From a virus, in IMG/VR virus record IMGVR_UViG_3300027996_000115, positions 1 through 31,428 of that record: DNA of 31,428 nucleotides. The stretch is one strand, 5' to 3'. Positions 1 to 30,388 of the stretch are shown here, in pieces (the first letter of the stretch is position 1; every line of letters starts with the position of its first letter). Below the pieces are notes generated by a model that saw only the letters and a program-made list of their open reading frames with translations, did not search any database and had not been told where the DNA came from. The position numbers and the translations under genes are program-made.

Positions 1-1971
1 TGTAATGCTAGTTGTCCCTGCTACTGGGCTACTAACGCTTAGTACTTGAGTGTAGTCTACGTATTCACCTCTTAAATACATGTCTGTTGTAGGTAAAGAA
101 CCTATAGTTGGTGTAGAGAAGCTTAATGTCCACCTGTTAGTACCTGCGTCATAAGTTAAAGAATCATTAGTGCTATTATCTACAACCCAAGATGTTTGAG
201 GTTCTCCGTATATACCTGGAGCACCTGTAGCTAAATTACGATCCGAAGATCCTATTGTAAAATCACCTATTGTTTGATTTAACAAAAGCAAAGCCGCGTC
301 ACCAAACCAAGACTTTACATCTAATGAATCATTAGCGTCGTAGTACGGGTGGAAAACAGTTGATCCGCCAAATATAGTACTACCTTGAGAGGCTGAAAGC
401 GTATCGTATGTAGATAAAATAACCGAGGATTGTCTTCCAAATTTATCTGATAAAACAAAACCTATTTGATAAGTTCTATTTTGTTTTATTGTGTGATTAG
501 GATATTCTGCCCAAGAAGTATACAAGTCATTTTTTTCTTGCACTGTACAGTTGTAGTCAAGCGTATCGTAAGGTGTGTGCTTGTCTCTAAAGTTGCCATA
601 TATAACTCTATTACCAGCAACAGATTGTGCTAATGCTCTAACTGGTACTTTATCATAAACCCTAGTTGTTTGTCCTTCAGTTAACGTTTTATATGGTTTT
701 TCAGATTGATATTCATAAACATAAACATCTTCGTCCATTTCAGAAGCCATAGTCGTACCTGATATGGTTTTTAAAACCTTAACAACTAAACCATTTGATT
801 CTTTATATAGTATGTCTATGTTTTTTATCTTATATTCTGTAAGTACGTTTTTAGAGGTACTACCTCCTAAGTTTTGATTTGTACCGACTCCAGGCAAAGG
901 TATTCTTAATTTAACATTATCCACGTTGTTCTCGAACCACTTAACAATAGTACTTTCATAAGCCTGTGTTTCGTTTCCATTTAGAAAAAATCCAGATTGT
1001 TGAGGTATAAATGCTATTTGGGTAAAAGGAGACATTAAAGAATATTCACCATCATCAAATTGAAACCTATACGCAAATCTAACGTATTTATCTTCTAAAT
1101 ATCTAGGATCACCAGGCCAACTAGTATTACCACTTTCGTTTGTCATTGTAGTTTCAATAAACCTAAGCCTTTGCCCAACAACAACAACGGTAGCAGGATC
1201 TGCATTAATAGTTACAGTGTTTGTAACTGTATCTATAGCTGTTACTCTTATATATTCACTACCAAGTATACTTTCTGATCCTACGTTTTGAGCAGCATTG
1301 GAAACTACAAACATATCAATAGATATACCGGTAACTGTTTCTAATATAAAATTCTTAGTATCTGTAATTGTAACGACAGTAGTATCTACCTCTTTATAAA
1401 GTTCAGGAGGATTTGTCGGCATATATTTAGCTACAGATATTTGACTTTCTTTAGTGTAATAGTTAGGGTTTGATAAAGCTGTAGTTACGTTTATTTTTCT
1501 AGGTTGATTTCTATTATCAGTCCAAAATAATAAATTCTCTACTAAATTTATTCCTGTAACTTGCCAACATCTGTTTTTAGCTAAATTTAAAAACTTACCT
1601 TCAACTAAAGTACTATAAGTATTATTATTAAGATCAAGAACAGTTATTTTCATTTCTACAGCAGTAGATGCTGATGGATAATTTATCGTTTGGCAAGTAG
1701 CGTCTACATCAGTATAGTCTGTTAATATTTGAAATATTCTATTACCAACTTCATCTTCAAACTTACCTATACATTTTAAATTAGCATTGCTAGAGGTTGT
1801 AGGCGGGATTAAAATATTACCTAATATATTCTCAAGCGAACCAACATCATTGTCTTCTGATCTACCTACAGATATATTCAGAGCATCTCTATATTCACCG
1901 TTAGGCAATATTCTATCATCAAGATCTTTATTCATCTTGGATTTTAGAAAAGTATTTTTAGCTTCTGCCAT
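1..1971 (-). CDS. tail stabilisation/structural protein, C-terminus cut by window edge
   Basis: An open frame runs without a stop from ATG at 1971 to base 1, at least 657 residues, so only the C-terminus is missing. The protein is rich in Thr/Val/Asn/Tyr, as beta-structured tail proteins are, and contains the segment DKYVRFAYRFQFDDGEYSLM, which I associate with large tail-stabilisation (stopper/nozzle-like) structural proteins of crAss-like and other Bacteroidota podoviruses. No catalytic motif is seen. It starts 3 bases after the stop of the neck gene 1975-3231, so it is the promoter-distal member of the terminase-portal-capsid-neck series. The role is inferred from the family resemblance and the position; a coding, structural function is near certain. 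Confidence 0.75.
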   Translation of the reverse strand, partial: MAEAKNTFLKSKMNKDLDDRILPNGEYRDALNISVGRSEDNDVGSLENILGNILIPPTTSSNANLKCIGKFEDEVGNRIFQILTDYTDVDATCQTINYPSASTAVEMKITVLDLNNNTYSTLVEGKFLNLAKNRCWQVTGINLVENLLFWTDNRNQPRKINVTTALSNPNYYTKESQISVAKYMPTNPPELYKEVDTTVVTITDTKNFILETVTGISIDMFVVSNAAQNVGSESILGSEYIRVTAIDTVTNTVTINADPATVVVVGQRLRFIETTMTNESGNTSWPGDPRYLEDKYVRFAYRFQFDDGEYSLMSPFTQIAFIPQQSGFFLNGNETQAYESTIVKWFENNVDNVKLRIPLPGVGTNQNLGGSTSKNVLTEYKIKNIDILYKESNGLVVKVLKTISGTTMASEMDEDVYVYEYQSEKPYKTLTEGQTTRVYDKVPVRALAQSVAGNRVIYGNFRDKHTPYDTLDYNCTVQEKNDLYTSWAEYPNHTIKQNRTYQIGFVLSDKFGRQSSVILSTYDTLSASQGSTIFGGSTVFHPYYDANDSLDVKSWFGDAALLLLNQTIGDFTIGSSDRNLATGAPGIYGEPQTSWVVDNSTNDSLTYDAGTNRWTLSFSTPTIGSLPTTDMYLRGEYVDYTQVLSVSSPVAGTTSIT

Positions 1972-18520: not shown

Positions 18521-18967
18521 TTATCTGCTTTTATCTTTATTAACGTTATATATAGATTTAGTTAAAACCTTATCTATATATGAATTTCCTTTTATAATCT
18601 TGTTTCGCCTTTTACTAATAGGTATATCATCTTCACCTAGCATTATGCGATATATTCTTTTAATAAGCTGTTTACCTTTAAAAGAAACTTTGTATATGTT
18701 GTACTTTTGAGTTGTTCTATTTCTCTGTCTCCAAACAGAAATCCATTCGCCCTTTATTAATCTACTCCATCTTCTATTATCCCAACTGTAAGAGTAAGAA
18801 CCTGCTTCAAAATCTTTTTTTGTAAACAAGTCTATACAATCTAAATATATCAATAGTTCTAAATCTGCTTCATTTAGATCGTTGTTTTTGGAAGCCCATT
18901 TACGTATTATTCGATAATGTTTTAGCAGATTAAGATTTTTTAAATCTCCTGCTTCTAGCTTTTTCAC
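18521..18967 (-). CDS. possible winged-helix DNA-binding protein
   Basis: 148 aa, basic. Residues about 14-50 (LLKHYRIIRKWASKNNDLNE, then LELLIYLDCIDLFT) form helices and a turn in the spacing of a MarR-like winged helix, followed by SWDNRRWSRLIKGEWISVWR and TTQKYNIYKVSFKGKQLI, which would be the wing. I recall marine-phage proteins with this set. It overlaps the GroES stop by 4 bases (ATGA). It could be a late-transcription regulator. DNA-binding inferred, not proved. Confidence 0.55.
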   Translation of the reverse strand: MKKLEAGDLKNLNLLKHYRIIRKWASKNNDLNEADLELLIYLDCIDLFTKKDFEAGSYSYSWDNRRWSRLIKGEWISVWRQRNRTTQKYNIYKVSFKGKQLIKRIYRIMLGEDDIPISKRRNKIIKGNSYIDKVLTKSIYNVNKDKSR

Positions 18968-19224
18968 AAAACAACGACCACGTCCGTTGACTTAATAACG
19001 TGATATATTTTTTTATTATTCTGTATCTTATGACCTGCATGTTTATCATAAAATATAATATCTTCTTTTTTAACACCTTCAACATCATTACCTAAGCTTA
19101 TGATTTTAGCTTTTAAGTACCTAATGTCATCTCTATGTATTTCTGCTAAAAGCAACCCACCATCTGTTTCTTGAATTTGATCTTCTAGCTTTTCTATAAT
19201 TAAATTTCTACCTAGCGCTTTCAT
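18964..19224 (-). CDS. groES: phage co-chaperonin GroES
   Basis: 86 aa, close to the 94-97 aa of bacterial GroES. It begins MKALGRNLIIEKLE (barrel strand), has a short mobile-loop-like turn ETDGGLLLAE at residues 19-28 with the hydrophobic LLL in place of the canonical Ile-Val-Leu that docks on GroEL, then YLKAKIISLGNDVEGVKKED and ends STDVVVVL. The gene overlaps the GroEL stop by 17 bases (19208-19224), so the order of translation is GroEL first, then GroES, the reverse of the usual bacterial groESL order. Encodes the lid of the folding chamber, cytoplasmic, and works with the neighbouring GroEL. Confidence 0.85.
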   Translation of the reverse strand: MKALGRNLIIEKLEDQIQETDGGLLLAEIHRDDIRYLKAKIISLGNDVEGVKKEDIIFYDKHAGHKIQNNKKIYHVIKSTDVVVVL

Positions 19225-20758
19225 CTATTCTCATATTATTAATTACACAATCAGTAGAAAGGATAGTTGTTGCCACAGAAGCCGCGTTAATTAAAGCGCT
19301 TTTAGTTACGAGCAAAGGATCAATAATCCCTGACTCAACCATATTTACCATTTTTCCTGTAACCACGTTTAATCCAGTACCATCATTTTTATTAAAATCA
19401 GGTTCTTTAATATTAGCGTTTTTAAGTATAGTTTTAAAAGGTGACTTTATAGCTTCTAACAACACTTTTTGACCTTTTGTTTTAGGTTTTATTATTGACG
19501 AAGCATTTAATAAAGCAATACCACCTCCTGGTACTATACCTTGTTTTATAGCGGCTTTTGTAGCACATATAGCGTCTTCGACCCTATCTGTTTTTTCTTT
19601 TAATTCTACATCAGAAAAAGCGCCTACTTTTACTATAGCCACTTTAGCACTTAATGTAGCTAATCTTCTTTCTAAATTAACAACAACGTGTGCAGGGTTT
19701 TTCTTTTTTAAATCTTTTTTAATTTTTTCTATAAAATCTTTAGCTTCATCAGGTATTTCTTCTACTTGAATTACTGTTTGATTTTCTTGAGAAACTGACT
19801 TTACACATTCACCTAAATAATCTATTTGTATTGCATTTAAATCATCGCCTAAGTCCTCATTTATTATAGTTGAGTTTGTAAGCAAAGCTAAATCATTTAG
19901 TATTTCTTTTTTGCGTAAGCCATACGCTGGAGGGTCTACAACATTTACTTTAATATTACCCTTCATTTTATTCATTACCAAAGCAGAAAGAACAGTAGGA
20001 TCAACTTCGCCTATTAAAAGTAATGGTTTGTTGTTTTTTATTACATGTTCTAACACAGGTTGTATTTGTCTAATAGATTCTACTTTTGATTCCATTATTA
20101 AAACCAGCGGTTTATCTAGTTCTGCCGTGCCTTTTTCTTTATCAGTTATAAAGTTTTGATGGCAATAACCTTTGTAGTATTCTATACCATCTACTATCTC
20201 TGTTTCTGTTATTCCATTTTCAGAAACACCAAGTGTCACAATCCCTGTTTCACCTACTTCTCTAAAAGCATCACCTATTAACTTACCTAGAACTTTATCA
20301 TTGTTGGTTGATATAGTTGCTATATCGTCTATCATGTCACCTTTGACAGGTATACTTATTGATTCTAAATATTTAACAACTTTATCAACAGCTTTATTTA
20401 TACCTTCTTTTAGCTCTCTAGTGTTTATGTCTTTACTACGAGCTTCACTCAGTATAGCGTGAGCTAACACGGTAGCTGTGGTTGTTCCATCACCAGCTTC
20501 GTTAACTGTTTTTCTAGCTGCACCTTTTAATAAAGTTGCACCCATATTTTCTATTGGATCGTGCAGTGTTATGCAGTTCGCGACAGTAACACCATCTTTT
20601 GTTATGACAGGATTACCCTGGTCATCTTCCATTATAACACATTTACCGCTAGCTCCAAGTGTGGAGCTAACAGCGTTTGTGAGTTGTTCAATTCCTTTAA
20701 ATATTTTATCTTTAGCTTCGTCTCCAAAACTAAGATTTTTTACTATAGCATCAGCCAT
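19208..20758 (-). CDS. groEL: phage chaperonin GroEL (Cpn60)
   Basis: 516 aa against about 545 in bacteria. Equatorial ATP site: KDGVTV with D55 (E. coli D52), GDGTTTATVLA at 89-99 (D87 equivalent), and RVEDAICATKAAIKQGIVPG with D395 (E. coli D398), so ATPase residues are intact. The apical domain runs about 190-330 (GIEYYKGYCHQNFITDKEKG). The C-terminal Gly-Gly-Met tail is missing; the protein ends NNMRIDESAR. It is 24 residues shorter than usual in the C-tail and parts of the intermediate and apical regions. It probably folds the phage's own capsid or fibre proteins, or replaces a host GroEL that does not suit them. The pair with GroES is complete, so it can act alone in the cytoplasm. Small gap before the 104-aa gene, no Shine-Dalgarno. 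Confidence 0.93.
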   Translation of the reverse strand: MADAIVKNLSFGDEAKDKIFKGIEQLTNAVSSTLGASGKCVIMEDDQGNPVITKDGVTVANCITLHDPIENMGATLLKGAARKTVNEAGDGTTTATVLAHAILSEARSKDINTRELKEGINKAVDKVVKYLESISIPVKGDMIDDIATISTNNDKVLGKLIGDAFREVGETGIVTLGVSENGITETEIVDGIEYYKGYCHQNFITDKEKGTAELDKPLVLIMESKVESIRQIQPVLEHVIKNNKPLLLIGEVDPTVLSALVMNKMKGNIKVNVVDPPAYGLRKKEILNDLALLTNSTIINEDLGDDLNAIQIDYLGECVKSVSQENQTVIQVEEIPDEAKDFIEKIKKDLKKKNPAHVVVNLERRLATLSAKVAIVKVGAFSDVELKEKTDRVEDAICATKAAIKQGIVPGGGIALLNASSIIKPKTKGQKVLLEAIKSPFKTILKNANIKEPDFNKNDGTGLNVVTGKMVNMVESGIIDPLLVTKSALINAASVATTILSTDCVINNMRIDESAR

Positions 20759-29938: not shown

Positions 29939-30288
29939 CTACGGACGGGTGAGGGATCGTTATGAACTCCGCGAGTAGTTAATAGCTAGACGAGTAGCTT
30001 AATTAGGATTTAGGTGGGCGAATGCTGTAAAGATACCACGACAAATGGTACCTAAATTACATAAGCGAATTGCTAGTAGCTAGATGAGTGGTCTAATCAG
30101 TGTAAGTAATAACTTACTCTCAGAGATCGACTCTAGCGGCAACTAGGTAGGGTTACTACTGACGAGTATGAGGGTTCGAGTCCCTCGCTAGTTACAAATG
30201 TGCAGCGAATAAATAACAAACCTGCAAATCGGTTAGAGTGTAACTAATTTAGGTTACCGAAAAGCGGTTAGGAAATGACTGCACACAC
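29939..30288 (+). ncRNA. gene-free structured RNA cluster upstream of the tmRNA-like domain
   Basis: 350 bases without a convincing reading frame. Two similar starts, TAGCTAGA-CGAGTAG-CTTAATTAG (29983) and TAGCTAGA-TGAGTGG-TCTAATCAG (30077), lie 94 bases apart. TTTAGGT (about 30009) pairs with ACCTAAA (about 30050). A hairpin GTAAGT-AATA-ACTTAC lies at 30102-30117. TGTGCAG (30199-30205) pairs with CTGCACA (30279-30285), closing an 87-base domain next to the tmRNA-like element, with inner stem GTAAC/GTTAC (30240-30257). The repeats and stems are seen; that this is processed RNA is inference. Confidence 0.5.
30141..30194 (+). ncRNA. tRNA-like element 3 (perfect T-arm)
   Basis: T-arm GAGGG-TTCGAGT-CCCTC (30170-30186), then GCTAGTT and A (30187-30194). 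AACTAGG (30141-30147) pairs with GCTAGTT at 6 of 7; between them TACT-ACTGACG-AGTA forms a 7-base-loop hairpin. An alternative 5' partner is GTAGCTAG (30076-30083), pairing with CTAGTTAC over 8 bp and giving a 120-nt RNA. Neither is a standard tRNA. Confidence 0.45.
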
Positions 30289-30366
30289 GGGGGTGACCTG
30301 GTATTGACGTGATAGAAAGCCTATATGGAACTATTGCGGAAGAGAGTTCGAATCTCTCCACCTCCA
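30289..30366 (+). ncRNA. tmRNA-like domain without tag region (78 nt)
   Basis: Starts GGGGGTG-ACCTGGTATTGAC, matching the 5' end of tmRNA (GGGGnTG-A-CTGGTttTGAC type). It ends with a T-arm GAGAG-TTCGAAT-CTCTC (30342-30358) and acceptor 3' strand CACCTCC plus A (30359-30366). The acceptor is fully paired 7 of 7 with G3-U70 as a wobble, the alanine identity pair kept in tmRNA. Before the T-arm, GGAACTATTGCGGAAG resembles the conserved tmRNA 3' block. Only about 30 bases link the halves (a short stem ATAG/CTAT), so there is no room for a tag frame or pseudoknots. CCA is not encoded. Precedes the 50-aa gene by 22 bases. Confidence 0.7.
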
Positions 30367-30388
30367 CTAAACTTAAAATAAAATAACT

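Follow-up and report, generated by a model that had tools for sequence, protein, structure and literature searches.

The window, by which we mean the whole 31,428-base virus record analyzed here, carries terminase and portal genes together with genes for GroEL and GroES, the last two encoded at 18964-20758. On its plus strand, at 30289-30369, sequence and fold reveal a complete tRNA-like domain (TLD) of a transfer-messenger RNA (tmRNA) that is closed on itself (Table 1). The initial annotation had described both halves of such a domain, separated by about 30 bases and no tag region, and had ended the element at the discriminator base (30289-30366). Inspection bears out this description: the 5′ half GGGGGTG-AC-CTGG-TATT-GAC (30289-30308), the T arm, and the strand CACCTCC followed by A are all present, the alanine-identity pair is formed by G3 at 30291 and its U70 partner at 30363, and the GAC that ends the 5′ half is separated from the T stem by 33 bases (30309-30341), most of them paired. 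The element combines the features expected of a TLD, namely, a 7-bp acceptor stem with G3-U70, a discriminator A, a T arm, and a stemless D region, and presents them in standard order without a coding sequence, the arrangement that characterizes a tag-less, DS6A-type tmRNA.

Table 1. Coordinates of the RNA element in the window and of divergent elements in three terminase relatives
Feature	Position	Strand	Evidence or remark
Putative tag-less tmRNA, whole, plus three bases past the discriminator	30289..30369	+	RF00023, fold, conserved in relatives
Acceptor stem 5′ strand GGGGGTG, G3 = 30291	30289..30295	+	sequence; pairs counted in alignments
D region AC-CTGG-TATT-GAC, no stem; final C 30308 pairs with G 30338	30296..30308	+	sequence, RF00023 alignment, fold
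P2 helix 5′ strand GTGATAG	30309..30315	+	fold; covaries
P2 cap AAAG / CC-TATAT-GG / AA, in place of tag frame and pseudoknots	30316..30330	+	fold, comparison of 48 distinct sequences
P2 helix 3′ strand CTATTGC, plus G pairing with C 30308	30331..30338	+	fold; covaries
T arm GAGAG-TTCGAAT-CTCTC, loop UUCGAAU	30342..30358	+	RF00023 alignment, covariation
Acceptor stem 3′ strand CACCTCC (30359-30365), U70 equivalent 30363, discriminator A 30366	30359..30366	+	sequence
Divergent TLD-like element, 78 nt, G3-U70	L466 398-475 (-)		RF00023 match below cut-off, terminase relative
Divergent TLD-like element, 134 nt, G3-U70, long extra hairpin in P2	L467 458-591 (-)		terminase relative
Divergent TLD-like element, 108 nt, A-U at 3-70 (by eye)	L468 about 480-587 (-)		terminase relative, weak

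Fold of the element and its upstream neighborhood

Rfam and ARAGORN searches had been proposed as checks on the tmRNA resemblance. The Rfam tmRNA model RF00023 matches the element at 64.1 bits against a gathering cut-off of 47 (E 5.2e-23), and it is this match that sustains the resemblance; ARAGORN, when run, reports 0 genes in the window and misses the element. The RF00023 alignment spans model positions 1-374, with 304 middle model positions facing 11 bases. Folded in isolation, the 81 bases reach -26 kcal/mol (z -2.24), and 2 of 200 shuffled sequences fold equally well. The features of the TLD are shared with the one-piece tmRNA that RF00023 describes, but the short form has no tag reading frame, resume codon, or pseudoknots, and its P2 is closed by a cap; in the window element, both sequence and RF00023 alignment leave no space for a pseudoknot ring. 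The predicted P2 hairpin consists of GUGAUAG/CUAUUGC, an internal loop AAAG/AA, CC/GG, and a UAUAU loop. CCA is not encoded after the element, the discriminator being followed by CTA. A tRNA-Ala was considered and ruled out, given the missing D stem, the 0 genes from ARAGORN, and the single helix P2 with its internal loop. The 5′ half precedes the 3′ half, so that the gene is not permuted, and the permuted-tmRNA model RF04321 yields only 13.6 bits.

Two-piece tmRNAs exist, and in permuted tmRNA genes the 3′ half comes before the 5′ half. The element might represent one half of a split tmRNA, supplying the acceptor while the coding part is encoded elsewhere, for example in the RNA just upstream (30196-30288), a proposal that we regard as very unlikely. 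An RNA-like segment with conserved ends does lie directly upstream in 5 of 11 window-clade contigs, the window included, but it is missing in six (L003, L025, L027, L028, L064, and L071), and on account of this absence the segment, which contains the frame Ala-Ala-Asn-Lys-stop (GCAGCGAATAAATAA), was rejected as the coding piece. Moreover, the cap seals P2 and leaves no free end with which a partner could pair, and the 5′-then-3′ order in the window is opposite to that of permuted genes, as seen in L005.

More broadly, positions 29940-30287 of the window hold an array of further RNA-like segments, for which Rfam and ARAGORN returned nothing over cut-off in the window and six relatives. Judged by eye, the segments keep their ends and vary their middles in several relatives, for example AACTAGGTA(T/G)GG..TACTACTGACGAGTATGAGGTTCGAATCCTCACTAGTTAC and GTGCAGCGAATAAATA..AAATGACTGCACACAC. 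One segment resembles a tRNA, T arm included (RF00005, 19.5 bits, under the cut-off).

A family of short forms across many phage groups

The exact 20-base 5′ part of the window element occurs in four other viral contigs, all four carrying short forms in which both P2 and the T stem show paired changes. A looser sequence pattern, which required CTGG, GAC, GGA, and GTTCRA and asked for no base pairing, retrieved 69 viral stretches, and 67 usable matches from these entered a test in which the 3′ halves were swapped between loci. P2 pairing at five or more of six positions was found in 52 of the 67, whereas 1000 swapping trials averaged 6.6 and never exceeded 14, and a full 7/7 acceptor stem in 49 of the 67, compared to a mean of 11.3 (maximum 19). 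The pairing of the short forms therefore exceeds chance.

When the 69 stretches and those from later scans were filtered for at least 6/7 acceptor and 4/5 T-stem pairs, at least 36 distinct sequences remained, the window's included. Their alignment contains 20 consensus pairs, 15 of which have changed on both sides, and a G-U at 3-70 in 36/36. The CTGG, GAC, GGA, and GTTCRA letters and the acceptor and T helices are partly built into this viral-contig set by the search; no such requirement applied to G3-U70 as such, to A73, to P2 pairing, or to the cap. A covariance model of the short forms (R1) scores the short forms that were counted at 44-92 bits, and five ordinary bacterial tmRNAs at 23-38 bits. 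Realignment of 51 R1 matches (48 distinct) left 95.2% of cells paired, with G3-U70 in 48/48 distinct rows before any row was dropped, and gave a covariation score of 0.749, against 0.175 for shuffled and at most 0.130 for slid versions.

The collection comprises at least 48 short forms of distinct sequence, of which viral contigs supplied 40 and named Streptomyces phages the other 8. Before this count, eight doubtful rows were dropped (L063, L193, L012, L068, L204, L069, and L030, portal gene; L285, which overlaps long ORFs), as was an R1 match to a tRNA-Ala (L376 2906-2980); rows that overlap ORFs of at least 80 aa and were kept include L060, L035, L040, L007, L014, L038, L036, L041, L010, L272, and L311. 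Two later finds outside the 48, L315 and L333, both have G3-U70 and a discriminator A; L315 is without the AAAGCC cap.

Closed TLD-like structures with G3-U70 were also seen within portal genes of phages, near the 3′ terminus of the reading frame (coding ..DGGSTPPDS..), at L012 3341-3435, L069 3861-3955, L204 4646-4740, and L063 10160-10254, among others. The portal identity was supported by PF05136 in 3/3 tested (L069, L012, and L068), and in both P2 and the T stem, codon third positions were noted by eye to change in a matching way. They are either RNAs embedded in the portal message or a coding coincidence.

Proteins flanking 58 loci sort into 14 groups with no protein in common (13 if the doubtful L285 is left out), although the flanks are short and such grouping does not prove the phages unrelated. 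The short form is not a lone deletion and is spread over many phage groups. According to the initial annotation, a normal-length tmRNA in related phages would have made the window copy an isolated deletion; the related contigs examined carry short forms or nothing, and none of them has a match over the tmRNA cut-off with normal length. Phages often use the 3′ end of a tmRNA gene as attachment site, and the short forms look tmRNA-derived, as would be expected if a normal tmRNA, or an integration site in a tmRNA gene, had decayed. But neither half is truncated, the fold persists in 48 distinct sequences, an overlapping 48-row set displays paired changes of the strength given above, and the loci fall into separate flank-protein groups. 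A remnant is thus scarcely credible, and we rejected it.

Among 47 contigs with a short form, some of which may be fragments, 43 pass the RF00023 cut-off with matches that all measure 71-103 nt, one falls just below it, and three have none; no full-length tmRNA was detected in these contigs with RF00023. Nor did the 47 contigs, again possibly including fragments, yield a match to an SmpB gene, in a search whose control was positive in 10/14 known genomes. A host partner would thus be needed, and SmpB, EF-Tu, alanyl-tRNA synthetase, and CCA addition would all come from the host.

Cultured phages entered the collection through BLAST. The L038 element as query led to Streptomyces phages BRock, pSt2308, and Alone3, and the BRock element to GiJojo, LuckySocke, Tomas, Naboo, Riptide, and Jay2Jay, with Targaryen and Evy also listed; queries with the L042, L067, and L009 elements gave no match spanning most of the query. 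R1 finds a short form in 9/9 of the records from BRock to Jay2Jay. Eight of these records are annotated, and there its neighbors include tRNA-Val and other tRNA genes, with no annotation under it in seven and a hypothetical protein in GiJojo; the Naboo record is unannotated. Tomas, Naboo, Jay2Jay, and Riptide additionally encode a standard tmRNA 9-12 kb from the short form (L382-L385; L376, L377, L380, and L381), with ARAGORN-predicted tags such as ANSNVAFALAA. In the other five Streptomyces phages, RF00023 gives no additional match above its cut-off. In the four phages with both RNAs, the short form is divergent, with a weakened CUGG/GAC D region in which GG is kept (by eye) and with acceptor and cap retained; RF00023 scores it at 33.0 bits, below cut-off, in Jay2Jay and lists no match there in Tomas, Naboo, and Riptide. 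The Alone3 short form is likewise below cut-off at 36.8 bits. Such genes fall into an annotation blind spot, ARAGORN missing the one in the window and calling improbable long tmRNAs around the short element at two other loci (L037 10045-10574 and L368 1178-1803).

Closer to the window, the picture is uneven. Each of 11 window-clade contigs has one R1 match per contig, but these contigs were chosen for carrying the element, so that its presence in 11/11 is by construction and holds no frequency information. The nearest of 87 named records with a related terminase is MW202828 (62.7%), followed by Flavobacterium Elemovirus (~44%) and Cellulophaga phages (~36-38%), and R1 matched 0/7 of the whole genomes searched from the 87. 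Terminase-related viral contigs number at least 600, of which 80 were kept and 20, picked by eye for length (17-77 kb), were searched. In these 20, which may be fragments, R1 matched two at 37-39 bits and 18 not at all, and RF00023 gave three matches below cut-off and none above; the divergent elements are listed in Table 1, and the fold of the 78-nt one is equaled or bettered by 26 of 200 shuffled sequences. The RNA is patchy and fast-changing among the window's terminase relatives, or was lost in fragments.

Bacterial genome contigs, scanned with the same kind of pattern, returned at least 119 stretches; none of those listed combines 6/7 acceptor with 4/5 T-stem pairs. One of them, L107, was rejected as a short form, being the 3′ half of an ordinary tmRNA, and L181 looks similar by eye. 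R1 applied to 149 genomes of the family of the Muriicola genome came back empty at E 1e-8, under strict filters and with no positive control among them.

The charging signal and the P2 cap

Alanyl-tRNA synthetase recognizes its RNA substrates by a G3-U70 pair and A73. G3-U70 is present in 48/48 distinct short forms, and neither search pattern nor filter required it; the discriminator, also free of any search requirement, is A in 46/48 and U in two. CCA is encoded in 16/48.

The second recurrent feature lies in P2. An asymmetric loop below a short hairpin is present in 39/48 distinct short forms by a loose script criterion (at least three bases 5′ and at most two 3′ at some P2 loop, which L023 satisfies at another loop), and AAAGCC is spelled out in 27/48. 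At the third pair of the cap hairpin, all of C-G, G-C, A-U, and U-A are represented (by eye). AAAGCC...GGAA is common to the window clade and the Streptomyces phages, despite their different flank-protein groups. A kink-turn was considered for the cap and proved a poor fit by eye. Clade members L025, L027, L049, and L064 have the D region CTGGTTTTGAC, which two out of four Bacteroidota tmRNAs compared (Muriicola and Taibaiella) also have, and the window's own D region, TATTGAC, differs from it; the shared D region is a weak hint of a fit to the host.

Possible functions and relation to known tmRNAs

SmpB and EF-Tu bring an alanyl TLD to ribosomes stalled without a codon. On this background, we infer a course of events for the short form. 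The RNA would be transcribed together with the neighboring plus-strand genes, trimmed like a tRNA, provided with CCA, and charged with alanine by the host synthetase. Host EF-Tu and SmpB would then carry the charged RNA to ribosomes stalled without a codon, where it would take the place of the host tmRNA; as it has neither resume codon nor tag, nascent chains would not be tagged for proteolysis, and host trans-translation would be outcompeted. A phage-encoded tag-less tmRNA, cut down to its TLD and acting as an alanine-chargeable competitor of host trans-translation, is the reading that we favor, and to which the sequence features lend roughly an even chance.

Several observations sit awkwardly with it. 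The near-invariant charging signal sits badly with a plain SmpB sponge, for a pure decoy need not be chargeable, as do the four phages that possess both the short RNA and their own tagged tmRNA, which a decoy would hinder. Competition alone leaves the P2 cap unexplained. The A-U at 3-70 in L468 and the patchy occurrence count against the competitor reading as well.

Some of these observations bear on tag-less rescue or alanine donation, in which the charged RNA would enter stalled ribosomes, add alanine (perhaps repeatedly, the A site being codonless), and free or mark chains without an ssrA tag, as a positive phage function. The near-invariance of G3-U70 and A73 suggests that charging is used; coexistence with a tagged tmRNA in four named phages leaves room for another task; and the element stands beside tRNA genes in the eight annotated Streptomyces phages. 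However, we know of no way for a TLD alone to end a ribosome stall, and the reported effect of such molecules is inhibition. Mitochondrial tmRNA offers a parallel in that it apparently has no tag frame yet is suggested still to help, as stated in the accessible text of PMC11915505. Overall, rescue by alanine donation is possible but doubtful. Equally tentative is our suggestion, drawn from sequence comparison, that the short forms may constitute a separate tmRNA-derived class of phage RNA with its own P2 cap (AAAG / short hairpin / AA), selected for alanine charging and serving a positive tag-free reaction on stalled ribosomes (e.g., untemplated alanine addition with chain release), beside a full tmRNA in some phages.

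Alternatively, an alanine-charged RNA could act outside the SmpB pathway by titrating alanyl-tRNA synthetase or EF-Tu, or by feeding a tRNA-dependent ligase. The weakened CUGG/GAC with intact acceptor and cap in Tomas, Naboo, Jay2Jay, and Riptide would suit such a role, but the contig set retains the D region (where the search pattern demanded CTGG and GAC), and even the divergent Streptomyces forms keep GG by eye. We judge an action outside the SmpB pathway improbable.

The competitor reading has a published precedent that renders plausible, by analogy, the decoy role proposed in the initial annotation. The initial annotation knew of no phages with such a form, a statement overtaken by the tmRNA of mycobacteriophage DS6A, already reported as "TLD only" (Hudson et al., 2014; PMC4131195). 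That source reports strong inhibition of tmRNA by a DS6A-like molecule, which may act by titrating SmpB, in work credited to Mao et al. (2009), and the inhibitor is described as working whether or not it can be charged (PMC4131195). Another paper restates the DS6A-type inhibition and tabulates nine "standard, no CDS" cases among 97,179 unique tmRNA genes from all sources (PMC11915505). As described there, the DS6A tmRNA resembles the short forms in being phage-borne and little more than a TLD; it is, however, a single phage compared by description only, whereas the present set spans many phage groups and is mostly capped. DS6A is the only phage TLD-only tmRNA that we found, and neither family nor cap is described, in the literature covered, which lay mostly outside subscription journals.

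The tag-less tmRNA is thus a kind already known, and what is new is its breadth, the P2 cap, the near-invariant charging signal, and the four phages with both RNAs. A form noted, in the accessible sources, in one phage (DS6A) and in nine of 97,179 tabulated genes is now seen to be spread over many phage groups, cultured Streptomyces phages included. One can thus test directly if host trans-translation is attacked or rewired by phages, and how a chargeable TLD acts on a ribosome when no tag follows.

Other reduced or rearranged tmRNAs are alike in part, as far as the accessible texts describe them. The plastid tmRNAs of Mallomonadaceae (~65 bp; PMC11915505) are likewise short and devoid of coding sequence but are two sequences from plastids, not phages; mitochondrial tmRNA (RF02544; PMC11915505) likewise appears to have no tag frame but is usually permuted and is the organelle's own RNA. 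The tmRNA of phage Melnitz is also phage-borne but permuted and described as two-piece (PMC9004378). Maribacter phage Panino, first seen as a BLAST match, was ruled out as a short form: its tmRNA, though phage-borne too, has a permuted gene order (L005 2987-3195, RF04321 62.2 bits), in a record that annotates one 333-base tmRNA. In the crAss-like phage cr50_1 (L372), a RAGATH-22 RNA at 565-731 lies ~450 bases upstream of a permuted tmRNA at 1187-1555.
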